Shown here one piece after another: positions 29,023-34,394 of a stretch of 64,000 bases of DNA. The notes under the pieces are model-generated. The model had not been told where the DNA came from. It searched no databases and saw only the letters and a list, made by a program, of their open reading frames with translations. The stretch lies in the NCBI GenBank assembly GCA_903927185.1, contig CAIYLW010000020.1:62001-126000 (forward strand). Reading direction: 5' to 3'. A program made the position numbers and the translations under genes. Each line of letters begins with the position of its first letter. Position 1 is the first letter of the stretch. Origin of the DNA: an uncultured Bacteroidota bacterium. GTDB taxonomy: Bacteria > Bacteroidota > Bacteroidia > Chitinophagales > Chitinophagaceae.

Positions 29023-30681
29023 TTATATTGCTTTATACATTAACTCATAATATTCTTGAGCCATTCTATTGCTATCAAACTGCCAACGTACATCCATCAT
29101 TCCGTTTTTCATAATCTGTCTCCAGGTATCAGGTTGTTCGTAATAAAGGGGTAGTATTTGTTGATTTAGTATTTCATACATCTTATTTAAATCATAATCA
29201 TCCTGTTCCTGAACAGACATATTTTCGTAATCTGCTTTTGGAACAACAAATCCGTTATTGCCATGGTTAATGAATTCTGGTATCCATCCATCATCTGTAG
29301 AAAAATTCACAGACCCATTCATAGAAGCAGTCATACCACTAGTTCCTGAAGCTTCACGAGGTACACGTGGATTATTTAACCATAGGTCGGAAGCTTGTTT
29401 TAGCCTTTTGCTCAAACCAAGTTCATATCCAATAAGTACAGATACATTTTTATACTTTTTACTTATTTGAACCAAGTTATTAAACTGAGTGATAGCTGGA
29501 TAATCTAAAGGGTAAGGTTTCCCAGCCCAAATAATTTGAACAGGATACTTAGTGTTTGCCAGTAGAGTTTCGAATTTTTCTTCATCCCAGCTCAACATAT
29601 CCGCACGTTTATAACCGGCAAAACGACGAGCCCAAACAATTGTAAACACATTAGGATCAAATAATTTTCCTGTTTGATCTGCTACTATTTCAAAAGCTCT
29701 TTTCTTTAAGTATTTTTTTCTGTCATCAAAACTAAAATCATTCTTTTCTTCCAATGAACGATACAATTGTTTATCAGCCCAATAATGCCAGTTCTGTGCA
29801 TTGGTGATACTGATAATTGGACAAATGCCCTCGTAATGAGACCACATTTCCCTACTTACAACACCATGTAATGCAGACACTCCATTTGCTTTTCTTGCAA
29901 ATCTAAGTGCAACTAATGAGTGATTAAATTGATCGTCTTTAAGGCCTGTTATTTTTCGAACCTCATCTAAACTGAGTCCACAGAAATAACTCATTTTTTG
30001 ACACAGATATATATCGTGTTTTTCATTTCCGGCTTCTTCAGGAGTATGGGTTGTAAAAACTAAATGATCTTTTACTTTTTCTAAGCTTTTGAATTTATTT
30101 AAAAGATAGAAAGCCGCTGAAATGCCATGTGCTTCGTTCAAATGATACACTTCAGGATTGAATCCTAACTCATCAATTAATTTTGCTCCACCAATTCCTA
30201 GTAGAATAAACTGTGCAACTTTAGTAGCCACATTCGCATCATATAAACGATGTGTGATGGTTTGAGAAACATAATCATTTTCAGGTAAGTCTGTGCTCAA
30301 AAGAAAAAGAGGAGCACTTTTAAAAGTTTCTGGATTTAAATAATATGCTTTAACCCAAACTGGATGATCATGAATTAGTATCTGAAACTTTATATCTGTT
30401 TCTTCCAGGTAGCTGTGGATTTTTTCCATGAAAGTAACCTGTAATGTTTGATCCTGATTTCTGGCCTGATCATAATATCCATATTTCCATAAAATACCGA
30501 TTCCAACCATATTCTGGCGTAATTCGTAAGCACTACGTAAATGTGAACCCGCTAAAAATCCTAATCCACCACTATATATTTTTAGTGGTTGGTGAATAGC
30601 AAACTCCATAGAAAAGTAAGCTGCTTTTTTTGCATATTGTTCATCTACAGAATAAGGTACCTGAAAGCTTCTAAAATTCAT
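29023..30681 (-). CDS. glgP: Alpha-glucan phosphorylase family protein (GT35) lacking the PLP lysine
   Basis: Protein of 552 residues, the short form of GT35. Family blocks: SMEFAIHQPLKIYSGGLG, HLNEAHGISAA, FTTHTPEEAGNEKHD, RRFAGYKRADM, WAGKPYP and PREASGTSGM. GT35 enzymes degrade glycogen or maltodextrin to glucose 1-phosphate with pyridoxal phosphate bound to the Lys in the GTGNMK-type motif. Here the motif is SGTSGMTASMNG, so that position is Thr451. The protein may be a non-PLP glucan-binding relative or may use another chemistry; I recall the same change in related Bacteroidota proteins but cannot verify it. malQ is 14 kb away. The gene stands alone with its own terminator. Confidence 0.82.
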   Translation of the reverse strand: MNFRSFQVPYSVDEQYAKKAAYFSMEFAIHQPLKIYSGGLGFLAGSHLRSAYELRQNMVGIGILWKYGYYDQARNQDQTLQVTFMEKIHSYLEETDIKFQILIHDHPVWVKAYYLNPETFKSAPLFLLSTDLPENDYVSQTITHRLYDANVATKVAQFILLGIGGAKLIDELGFNPEVYHLNEAHGISAAFYLLNKFKSLEKVKDHLVFTTHTPEEAGNEKHDIYLCQKMSYFCGLSLDEVRKITGLKDDQFNHSLVALRFARKANGVSALHGVVSREMWSHYEGICPIISITNAQNWHYWADKQLYRSLEEKNDFSFDDRKKYLKKRAFEIVADQTGKLFDPNVFTIVWARRFAGYKRADMLSWDEEKFETLLANTKYPVQIIWAGKPYPLDYPAITQFNNLVQISKKYKNVSVLIGYELGLSKRLKQASDLWLNNPRVPREASGTSGMTASMNGSVNFSTDDGWIPEFINHGNNGFVVPKADYENMSVQEQDDYDLNKMYEILNQQILPLYYEQPDTWRQIMKNGMMDVRWQFDSNRMAQEYYELMYKAI

Positions 30682-30805: not shown

Positions 30806-31741
30806 TTACTTCGCGGATCTTCTTTTACGAGTGAATTGGTCATCAAAAAAACATTTTATTCCGCGATGATTACCACAGGAACCAGTTTCTTTAACACTGA
30901 TTTGGTTTTCATCAAAAATAAAATCAATGACACAAGGGTCTCCATTGAAAGTATAAATTCCGTGGGAAGCATCTTTCATTTTAAATTCACCCTTCAGTTC
31001 ACCAATGCAGGTTGCTTCATTTTTTTCGAAATGCATAAAAAATGTGTAGGTGGATATATTTTTCCCGTCTCTTACTGAGATGAAATTTCTTTTGTCTTGC
31101 GTGTAGTCTCCGCTTAATTTGTTTTTGTGTGGTAAAGTATCGATTGGGTTTATAATGGCAGATTTGGATGGACTTTCATTAGAATCATTAATAACAATCA
31201 TAAAACCAACACCTGAAGTATATACCCAACCTGACCTTGAGAATTGAATCAAATTTTCTTTACCTGCTTTTTCCTGACTTAATAGGAATGTAGGTTCTTT
31301 ATTTATACTTAGTGAATGCACATAATCATCTTCTGTAGTATTGTCAATTAAAAACTTTGAAGCTAAATAATGGGTTGATTTTGTGTCAAGAACAAATACA
31401 ACCATTTCAACTTTGTGTTTCAAAACAATGTTAACCAAAAGGTAAGTCTCTTTCTCTTTAATTATTCTACCAACAGGATAGAAGTGGGGGCTTTTTTCTT
31501 TACCAATATATTTAACTGTAACTGTATCAGGAATAAATTGATTAATCGCTTTTAATCCTATTTTATTAGAGTCGCTAACATTTGTAAAGTTGCTATCTGC
31601 AATTAGGTAGTTACCAGAAATAACAGGAAAAATGGAAAGAAAATCTTTGGCTTTTAATGGAGATGCCCCAGTTAAGTCTAATTTTTTTTCGCCGCAGGCA
31701 AAAATGGCTATTAAAAAAACATAGAACAATTTCTTTGGCAT
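30806..31741 (-). CDS. Lipoprotein of unknown function
   Basis: Protein of 311 residues with a lipoprotein signal peptide: MPKKLFYVFLIAIFACGEKK, lipobox Cys16. The mature part is beta-rich and polar. The last 60 residues hold two cysteines (GDPCVIDF and GSCGNHRG) that could form a disulfide. I do not recognise a family. The gene is divergent from the mntR regulator gene, 108 bases apart, and shares an intergenic region with two inverted repeats. A link to metal homeostasis is therefore possible but unproven. Confidence 0.72.
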   Translation of the reverse strand: MPKKLFYVFLIAIFACGEKKLDLTGASPLKAKDFLSIFPVISGNYLIADSNFTNVSDSNKIGLKAINQFIPDTVTVKYIGKEKSPHFYPVGRIIKEKETYLLVNIVLKHKVEMVVFVLDTKSTHYLASKFLIDNTTEDDYVHSLSINKEPTFLLSQEKAGKENLIQFSRSGWVYTSGVGFMIVINDSNESPSKSAIINPIDTLPHKNKLSGDYTQDKRNFISVRDGKNISTYTFFMHFEKNEATCIGELKGEFKMKDASHGIYTFNGDPCVIDFIFDENQISVKETGSCGNHRGIKCFFDDQFTRKRRSAK

Positions 31742-31849: not shown

Positions 31850-32509
31850 ATGAATTTAACTGTTACCGAAGAGAATTATATTAAATCTATTTTTCATTTA
31901 CAGCAAGCAGAAGGTAATGTGAGTACGAATGAATTAGCTGCTTCTTTACATACTAAACCAGCTTCTGTAACTGATATGCTTAAAAAGCTTACTAATAAAA
32001 ATTTATTAAATTATATACCCTATCAGGGAGTAAGGTTAACTAAGGATGGAAAAAAGCAGGCTTTAATGATTGTTCGTAAGCATCGTTTATGGGAATTTTT
32101 TTTAGTAGACAAATTGCAATTTGGTTGGGATGAAGTGCACGAAGTAGCTGAAGAATTAGAACATGTTAGTAGTAAAAAATTAGTTGAAAAGTTAGATTCT
32201 TTTTTAGGTCATCCTAAATTTGACCCTCATGGTGATCCTATCCCAGATATTCATGGAAATATGGTGGCAGTCCGCCAATTCAATTTAATAGATATAAAAC
32301 CAGGCACATTGGTGGAGGTCTGCAGTGTAGGGAGCCAATCTGCAGAATTGCTTGAATTACTTCGTCATAAAAATATAGGCATAAGTACCGAAATGTTAAT
32401 TATGAAGAAATTTGAATTTGATCATTCAGTGGAAATAAAAATTAAAAACAGTCAGCATATTAATATTAGTCAGCAATTGGCGCAGGCTTTATTTGTAAAA
32501 TTAGTTTGA
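31850..32509 (+). CDS. mntR: DtxR/MntR family metal-dependent transcriptional repressor
   Basis: Regulator of 219 residues. The N-terminal winged helix reads NYIKSIFHLQQAEGNVSTNE and TKPASVTDMLKKL (residues 6-60). Next comes the metal-binding and dimerisation helix pair with HRLWEFFLVDKL and HEVAEELEHVSS (about 78-105). The last 75 residues form a FeoA/SH3-like domain (LIDIKPGTLVEV). With Mn2+ or Fe2+ bound, such proteins repress metal uptake genes. The downstream gene, one base away, is an Nramp Mn2+/Fe2+ transporter, so this is probably its manganese or iron sensor. Confidence 0.9.
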   Translation: MNLTVTEENYIKSIFHLQQAEGNVSTNELAASLHTKPASVTDMLKKLTNKNLLNYIPYQGVRLTKDGKKQALMIVRKHRLWEFFLVDKLQFGWDEVHEVAEELEHVSSKKLVEKLDSFLGHPKFDPHGDPIPDIHGNMVAVRQFNLIDIKPGTLVEVCSVGSQSAELLELLRHKNIGISTEMLIMKKFEFDHSVEIKIKNSQHINISQQLAQALFVKLV

Positions 32510-32510
32510 A

Positions 32511-34394
32511 ATGAATTCATCTTTACAGAATCAAAACTCACTCAGTGATGTGCACGAATCCGTGGATATGAGTCATAGTACTAAGGGCTGGAGAAGACTA
32601 TTGGCATATATGGGGCCAGCTTATCTTGTTAGTGTAGGTTATATGGACCCAGGTAATTGGGCTACAGATTTACAAGGTGGCGCACAGTTTGGATATAGTT
32701 TAATTTGGGTTTTATTAATGAGCAATTTAATGGCTTTATTATTACAAAGTCTGAGTGCCAGATTAGGAATTGTAAGAAGACGAGATTTAGCCCAGGCTAA
32801 TAGAGAAGTGTATCCTCCTCTAGTAAATTTTTGTTTGTATGTTTTTGCAGAAATTGCTATTGCTGCATGTGATTTAGCTGAGGTATTGGGAATGGCATTA
32901 GGTATCTATTTATTAACCGGCCTTCCGCTTATTTGGGGAGTTTGCATTACTGTATTAGACACGCTATTATTGTTGTGGTTACAAAATTTCGGAATCCGAA
33001 AATTAGAAGCCTTTATCTTATCACTTGTTGCGGTGATTGGAATTTCTTTTTTTGCGGAATTATTTTTTGCTAAACCTGACCTACATCAAATAGCATCTGG
33101 ATTTATTCCAGGAATTTTGAATAAAAATGCGCTTTATATTGCCGTAGGAATTATTGGTGCTACTGTGATGCCTCATAATTTGTATCTCCATTCTGCTTTA
33201 GTTCAAACTCGGAAAATAAAGTCTGATAAAGAGGGAATAAAAAATGCATTGCGTTTCAATATGATTGATAGCACCATTGCATTAAATGCAGCGTTTTTTG
33301 TAAACACCGCAATATTAATATTAGCTGCTTCAGTATTTTTCAGCTCTGGTAATACACAAGTTGCTAAAATAGAAGATGCACATAAATTATTAGCTCCATT
33401 ATTAGGAAGCAAATTGGCACCGATACTTTTTGCAATTGCATTAATTGCTGCTGGCCAAAGTAGTACCATTACAGGAACCCTTGCAGGTCAGATTGTTATG
33501 GAAGGTTATCTGCAATTAAGGATTAATCCGCTATTAAGGAGATTAATTACTCGGATAATTGCAATTACACCTGCAATTATCACGATACTTATTTATGGCA
33601 ATGAAAAAATAGATGCTTTGCTTGTATTAAGTCAAGTAATACTAAGTGTACAATTAGGTTTTGCTGTAATACCATTAATCCATTTTGTAAGCGATAAAGC
33701 TACTATGGGCGAGTTCGCAATTAAAAACAGAACCAAGATTGCTGCTTGGCTTGTGGCTGGAATTTTGGTGTTTCTAAATGTAAAAATGGTATTAGATCAA
33801 TCAATTGATTTTTTTAAGCAGCCTGGAAATATGGTTTGGAAAATAATAATTCTTTTGGGAGCAGCCATTTTTATTTGGCTATTTATCATGATGACTTTTC
33901 TTCCCATTTTTAAGAAAAGGAAATTGCGTGATATTGCCCGAATGCATAATGATATACCCATTTTACAAAATTTAGCGGTAAATGTAAATCGTGTAATTGC
34001 CATTTCCCTCGACTTCTCAAAGGCAGACGAAAAATTGATTGCTTATGCCATTGCTCAAGGGCAATCTGATGTTCGTTATATTTTGATTCATATTGTAGAA
34101 AGTCCTTCTGCTAAATATTTTGGAGAGGCTAGTGATGATTATGAGACCAGAAAGGACATGGAAAGGTTGGAAGCTTTAAGTAGTCAATTAATAAATGCTG
34201 GATACAAAGTAGAATTTGTTCTAGGCTATAGAAACCGGGTTTCAGAAATAGTTAGGATTGTGAAAATGAAAGAGGCAGATATGTTAGTAATGGGAGCACA
34301 TCGGCATAAGGGAATAAAAGACTATATATTTGGAGAAACCATCGAAAGTGTTAGGCACCAATTAGAGATTCCAGTACTAATTGTGAATGTGTAA
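32511..34394 (+). CDS. mntH: Nramp divalent metal transporter fused to a universal stress protein domain
   Basis: Protein of 627 residues. Residues about 25-480 form an Nramp (SLC11) transporter with 11 or so helices. The metal-site motifs are DPGNWATD in helix 1 and MPHNLYLHS in helix 6. It imports Mn2+ or Fe2+ with protons. Residues about 495-627 form a UspA-like nucleotide-binding fold: VIAISLDFSKADEKLI, HIVESPS, then ADMLVMGAHRHKGIKDYIFGET with the Gly-rich ATP motif, and PVLIVNV at the end. The fused domain may sense nucleotide state on the cytosolic side. One base separates it from the mntR-like gene, so they form one operon. Confidence 0.93.
   Translation: MNSSLQNQNSLSDVHESVDMSHSTKGWRRLLAYMGPAYLVSVGYMDPGNWATDLQGGAQFGYSLIWVLLMSNLMALLLQSLSARLGIVRRRDLAQANREVYPPLVNFCLYVFAEIAIAACDLAEVLGMALGIYLLTGLPLIWGVCITVLDTLLLLWLQNFGIRKLEAFILSLVAVIGISFFAELFFAKPDLHQIASGFIPGILNKNALYIAVGIIGATVMPHNLYLHSALVQTRKIKSDKEGIKNALRFNMIDSTIALNAAFFVNTAILILAASVFFSSGNTQVAKIEDAHKLLAPLLGSKLAPILFAIALIAAGQSSTITGTLAGQIVMEGYLQLRINPLLRRLITRIIAITPAIITILIYGNEKIDALLVLSQVILSVQLGFAVIPLIHFVSDKATMGEFAIKNRTKIAAWLVAGILVFLNVKMVLDQSIDFFKQPGNMVWKIIILLGAAIFIWLFIMMTFLPIFKKRKLRDIARMHNDIPILQNLAVNVNRVIAISLDFSKADEKLIAYAIAQGQSDVRYILIHIVESPSAKYFGEASDDYETRKDMERLEALSSQLINAGYKVEFVLGYRNRVSEIVRIVKMKEADMLVMGAHRHKGIKDYIFGETIESVRHQLEIPVLIVNV

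Follow-up and report, generated by a model that had tools for sequence, protein, structure and literature searches.

The window, by which is meant the whole stretch of 64,000 nucleotides analysed here, carries on its reverse strand an open reading frame for a protein of 552 residues, confirmed at the position given in Table 1, which profile searches place among the GT35 alpha-glucan phosphorylases: it scores 424.4 bits against TIGR02094 (the NCBIfam model for alpha-glucan family phosphorylases, cut-off 191.7) and 47.3 bits against Pfam PF00343 (cut-off 27). The phosphate-binding Arg and Lys residues and the catalytic Glu-Ala-Ser-Gly-Thr that are features of GT35 are present (Arg353, Lys358, Lys388 and Glu443, each in 23 of 23 reduced clade representatives), while the defining lysine that forms the aldimine with PLP is absent, Thr451 standing in its position. 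The substitution lies within YELGLSKRLKQASDLWLNNPRVPREASGTSGMTASMNG, the translation of 29427-29314 (reverse strand), and had been picked out in a first-pass annotation of this DNA; it is borne out both by the codon, ACT at 29331-29329, and by a MAFFT alignment in which Thr451 is opposite Lys646 of E. coli MalP, the PLP lysine of that enzyme according to PMC11046441. The same column holds Lys in the solved Segatella copri phosphorylase 9l6i. Proteins with Thr or Ser at this position are referred to below as T-forms, and those with Lys as Lys-forms. Judged from sequence, the T-form most likely descends from, and works like, the GT35 phosphorylases, minus one defining feature.

Table 1 Positions within the window of the T-form gene, of residues and motifs discussed in the text, and of neighbouring genes.
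Feature	Position	Strand	Basis or remarks
CDS, 552 aa; homologue of GT35-type alpha-glucan phosphorylases, Thr/Ser in place of the PLP lysine (T-form)	29023..30681	-	ORF and profile matches
Motif EASGTSGMTASMNG, residues 443-456, counterpart of EASGTGNMK	29314..29355	-	Alignment
Thr451 codon (ACT)	29329..29331	-	Aligned with E. coli MalP Lys646
Lys428, candidate replacement cofactor lysine	29398..29400	-	T-forms 121/121, Lys-forms 0/21; presumed close to cofactor
Lys388 (= MalP Lys574)	29518..29520	-	In all reduced representatives of both forms (residue table)
RRFAGYKR segment; Arg352, Arg353, Lys358, phosphate-handling	29608..29628	-	Kept (alignment)
NAQNWHYW, residues 294-301	29779..29802	-	Asn and Trp kept; Gln296 against Val/Ile of Lys-forms (alignment)
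GGLG loop, residues 38-41	30559..30570	-	Kept (alignment)
311-aa predicted lipoprotein-like protein	30806..31741	-	Just upstream of T-form, same strand; no Pfam match
DtxR/MntR-type repressor	31850..32509	+	Adjoins Nramp-Usp fusion
Nramp metal transporter with fused C-terminal universal stress protein domain	32511..34394	+	

Thr451 is not an error, since Thr or Ser occurs throughout its 121 clade relatives. Among these distinct proteins, all from Bacteroidota and counted after extra genome sampling with duplicates removed by core sequence, position 451 is Thr in 119, Ser in 2 and Lys in none, while Lys is found in 21 of 21 other short TIGR02094-type proteins examined; the alignment of short GT35 proteins proposed at first pass, to see if the Thr is fixed in a clade, thus gives a positive answer. 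In the first alignment, of 110 rows, the counts were Thr 97, Ser 2 and Lys 11, the Thr and Ser rows being those of the query and its 98 close relatives, and the Lys rows those of 11 Bacteroidota proteins further removed; once 12 proteins from plasmids had been included, the rows numbered 101 with Thr/Ser and 21 with Lys, no other residue occurring, and two E. coli enzymes were excluded from both counts. Within a sample of 148 genomes the position was read in 11 of the Lys-type matches, a minority of such matches, and Lys also occupies it in a match of 1430 aa from G291. The nearest named relatives of the T-form are from Chitinophagaceae, chiefly Sediminibacterium, and members of the clade are also carried on plasmids of Pontibacter and Runella, where they are annotated as glgP; among cultured bacteria, relatives are found in Sediminibacterium goheungense (L041) and Runella rosea (L156). 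A literature search, thin in its coverage of subscription papers, brought up no description of the T-form clade or of GT35 proteins without the PLP lysine, and passages of PMC10395257 and PMC9081730 contain nothing on such proteins.

A tree built from 41 rows places the Thr/Ser forms together on one side of a single branch, with support of 100/100, and the stem of the clade is 2.07 changes per site in length. With E. coli as outgroup, Lys-forms lie on both sides of the T-form branch, so that Lys is probably the ancestral state at position 451; the fork linking the T-form clade to its nearest Lys-forms (94/91) is drawn open. Comparison with the closest relative (94% identical) gives a dN/dS of about 0.014, with dS near saturation, and synonymous sites are saturated in the remaining eight comparisons; as far as the codons can tell, the T-form is under strong purifying selection.

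Asn294, Trp301, Arg353, Lys358, Lys388, Tyr419 and Glu443, together with Ser445, Gly446, Thr447 and Ser448, are invariant in 23 of 23 reduced clade representatives, Arg352 is present in 22 of 23, and the ring-side residues Trp301, Tyr419 and Asn436 are the same as in Lys-forms. Of the columns conserved to 90% or more among Lys-forms, the clade keeps 14 of 15 cofactor and catalytic positions (the lysine being the sole loss) as against 61 of 102 elsewhere, with a Fisher p of 0.01 that is indicative only, the 15-position list having been based on the rabbit enzyme and fixed after the residue table had been seen. On these alignments the loss of the PLP lysine looks selective, the cofactor and phosphate pocket being otherwise retained. 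The earlier statement that glucan-site and phosphate-side motifs are otherwise kept agrees with the residue table for the phosphate side, but needs an addition, in that several neighbouring motifs differ from those of Lys-forms: TNGVH has become TNAQN and GKAHP has become GKPYP, among others, and at individual positions the changes accompanying that of Lys451 include Asp46 to Ser, Phe70 to Tyr, Gly295-Val296 to Ala-Gln, Gly349 to Val, Ala389-His390 to Pro-Tyr, Lys397 to Ile, and Ala to Ser at 424.

Just two new lysines, Lys322 and Lys428, are shared by every clade representative and absent from every Lys-form representative, and of these Lys428 is the sole one in the C-terminal half near the motif. 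In the predicted structure it sits on the adjacent helix (residues 421-430), four residues after Ser424, which we take to be the counterpart of rabbit Ala653, a PLP-lining residue. Lys428 could be a relocated cofactor lysine, its predicted proximity to the cofactor site resting on the alignment and on helix 421-430. A second conserved lysine at the PLP site had been named at first pass as an outcome that would contradict a loss of PLP chemistry, and Lys428 makes this a live possibility.

The structural model itself, calculated with AlphaFold2 from 51 sequences, has a mean pLDDT of 81.2 and a pTM of 0.80, and is weak at the active site, where pLDDT falls below 50 at residues 440-445 and in some of the loops. 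Its best structural match is the S. copri phosphorylase 9l6i (VIA Z 30.1, 518 aligned), followed by ADP-bound GT5 synthases (Z 28.5-27.2) and E. coli MalP (Z 27.4), all these Z-scores being for the T-form model only; in Foldseek the top 50 matches listed are GT35 proteins, again headed by 9l6i. The GT-B fold is therefore nearest to those of solved phosphorylases, with GT5 synthases close behind. As for sequence, the GT5 profile TIGR02095 gives 44.4 bits with the query, below its cut-off of 328.45, and 41 bits with a Lys-form from Microvirga; a drift of the T-form sequence towards GT5 was looked for and not seen, its 44 bits being near the 41 of that Lys-form.

No second GT35 gene was found in the window's genome, which encodes GlgA, GlgC and GlgB elsewhere. 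Searching 37 genomes with PF00343, 19 of them with a T-form, returned T-forms only, so that the T-form is the sole GT35 gene in 19 of 19. Within this group of 19 a GT5 GlgA scores over cut-off in 13 and a GT3 synthase is found in 3 others, with GlgC in 14 and GlgB over cut-off in 16; one genome (G118) has GlgC without GlgA over cut-off, and in two (G076 and G111) all these synthases are missing. The 18 genomes without a T-form have GlgA in 9 and GlgB in 12. The comparison for GlgB over cut-off is not clear by itself in the 37 genomes (16 of 19 with a T-form against 12 of 18 others), but in 395 genomes the figures are 26 of 39 against 39 of 356 (p 6e-14, kinship not corrected): the T-form goes with glycogen branching enzyme.

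Some further observations on glycogen genes were made in passing. A glycosyltransferase of about 400 residues is found beside glgC in two genomes that have no GlgA over cut-off there (G118:C1:3036818-3037411 and G103:C1:1679146-1679745), and is a possible alternative glycogen synthase. An ORF of 258-397 residues matching just the N-terminal part of a GT5 synthase is listed for 37 of 37 genomes; such a GlgA fragment in Bacteroidetes is mentioned in PMC11046441. Nine genomes (G002, G021, G025, G064, G068, G084, G088, G122 and G142) have GlgA and GlgB over cut-offs and zero GT35 matches, and therefore seem to use glycogen without a GT35 phosphorylase.

A phosphoketolase (XFP) lies near the T-form in 3 of 41 T-form genes (42 loci inspected), all from one family. 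At one of these loci (L179) the genes for acetate kinase (AckA), XFP, the T-form and a universal stress protein (Usp) are on one strand, and at the other two (L129 and L183) XFP is beside the T-form in a similar arrangement. Plasmid Lys-forms have related company: that of Criblamydia is likewise found as XFP-glgP with AckA nearby, and phosphoglucomutase, and GlgX or isoamylase, also occur near Lys-forms; the Pontibacter T-form is close to a type II GAPDH and an isoamylase. No glycogen gene adjoins the T-form in the window, nor at most other inspected loci. The flanking genes of the window (a flavoprotein, the 311-aa predicted lipoprotein, the metal repressor and Nramp-Usp) are met again at loci of the family to which the window belongs, and were rejected as a guide to function on account of their absence from distant T-form loci. 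A phage or viral origin was also rejected, the peptide patterns finding no match in viral_contigs. Taken simply as observations, a transporter of the Nramp family accompanies the T-form at 68 of the 100 loci inspected, almost all of those 68 belonging to the window's family, and the 311-aa lipoprotein-like protein recurs in 77 of 100. At two Runella-like loci a pyridoxamine 5'-phosphate oxidase-like gene begins about 30 bases downstream of the T-form (L180:8100-8540 and L170:15642-16082), which may be chance or may be related to the cofactor.

As to what the loss of the lysine implies, it should be borne in mind that the chemistry of the GT35 family does not involve the imine, and that rabbit phosphorylase is reported to remain active after borohydride reduction. 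The explanation we favour, tentatively and with not quite an even chance of being right, is that the T-form is an active alpha-1,4-glucan phosphorylase which represents a separate subfamily in Bacteroidota and serves glycogen turnover with a cofactor that lacks the canonical imine. A phosphate-bearing cofactor, most likely PLP, would still occupy the pocket, held there either non-covalently or through an imine formed with the relocated Lys428, and its phosphate would still shuttle the proton in a phosphorolysis that yields glucose 1-phosphate; for PLP, the phosphate is described as the catalytic acid/base group in PMC6411801. This reading is suggested by the retention of the pocket (14 of 15 positions), the gain of Lys428, the status of the T-form as sole GT35 gene, its co-occurrence with branching enzyme and its XFP neighbours, and also by the fact that most T-form genomes already own a glycogen synthase (GT5 in 13 of 19, GT3 in 3 more). 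Against it, the long stem and the joint changes in pocket motifs appear to exceed what the same reaction would need, the XFP adjacency (3 of 41) is confined to one family, glycogen genes are few among the neighbours, and the model of the active site is weak.

The long stem and the coordinated changes near the pocket would suit a new ligand, and an unlikely alternative is a nucleotide-using glucosyltransferase, in which the PLP site would take the nucleotide of ADP- or UDP-glucose, as in GT5, and glucose would be moved between nucleotide and glucan. The closeness of the model to ADP-bound GT5 enzymes (Z 28.5-27.2, against 30.1 for the best GT35 and 27.4 for MalP) is consistent with this, although these Z-scores are those of the T-form model only, and a review (PMC11046441) proposes a proto-GT35 in which PLP took the place of a nucleoside monophosphate. 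However, the sequence has not drifted towards GT5 (TIGR02095 44 bits against 328, with 41 for the Microvirga Lys-form), a GT5 or GT3 glycogen synthase is already present in 16 of 19 T-form genomes, and Trp301, Tyr419 and Asn436 on the ring side are unchanged from Lys-forms. These last residues, along with the GTS phosphate loop, would also not be expected to persist so well in a site with no cofactor at all, which makes it rather improbable that the T-form is a PLP-free glucan-processing enzyme, be it a disproportionating transferase, a hydrolase or a phosphorylase working with inorganic phosphate alone; what speaks for such an enzyme is that Thr/Ser in 121 of 121 could mean a functional hydroxyl, and that Glu443, Asn294, Arg353 and Lys358 stay although the imine is gone.

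A catalytically dead glucan-binding regulator or scaffold is more improbable still. A pseudoenzyme might show just such a long stem branch followed by a lost hallmark residue, and most loci lack a tight link to one operon, but the catalytic and phosphate residues are invariant, purifying selection appears strong, and the T-form is the only GT35 in its genomes; the sensor suggested in the first-pass annotation is disfavoured on the same ground of a complete catalytic set. Its companion suggestion, a loss of PLP chemistry, is borne out in part: what the alignments show is a clade-wide loss of the Schiff-base lysine, while the cofactor-phosphate and ring-side positions are conserved above the rest of the protein and Lys428 has been gained. 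A phosphorylase remains the best fit to the gene context, but "without PLP" is better reworded as "without the canonical PLP lysine".

Taken more broadly, it is somewhat more probable than the contrary that a whole GT35 clade has dropped the PLP imine, the lysine having migrated to the Lys428 helix or PLP having been abandoned for a nucleotide or bare phosphate. Glucan phosphorylases are taken to have the PLP lysine as an unvarying signature, and T-forms appear in public annotation as glgP with no remark on its absence. A natural, fixed replacement with the rest of the site intact offers a direct test of the role of the imine in GT35, as well as of the proposed role of PLP as a substitute for a nucleotide phosphate; were PLP to have been abandoned, this would reverse the step proposed for the origin of phosphorylases from nucleotide-sugar transferases. 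The matter also bears on glycogen use by those Bacteroidota genomes that have the T-form as their only GT35 gene.

Among known systems the T-form is closest to the short-type GT35 proteins (TIGR02094; S. copri 9l6i), to judge by profile (424 bits) and fold (Z 30.1), and it shares with them the EASGTSG block, RRF..YKR, Asn294, Trp301, Lys388 and Tyr419. It differs in having Thr/Ser for the PLP lysine, in the gain of Lys428, in its TNAQN and GKPYP motifs, and in its length of 552 residues, the members of 700-870 aa having N- and C-terminal extensions that it lacks. With the classical phosphorylases (E. coli MalP and GlgP; TIGR02093) the catalytic and phosphate residues align, but the T-form scores only 39 bits against a cut-off of 552.9, and MalP has its PLP lysine, Lys646. 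The GT5 synthases (GlgA) have the GT-B fold in common with it, with Z up to 28.5, whereas the profile score (44 bits against 328) and the presence of a separate GlgA or GT3 synthase in most T-form genomes set the two apart.
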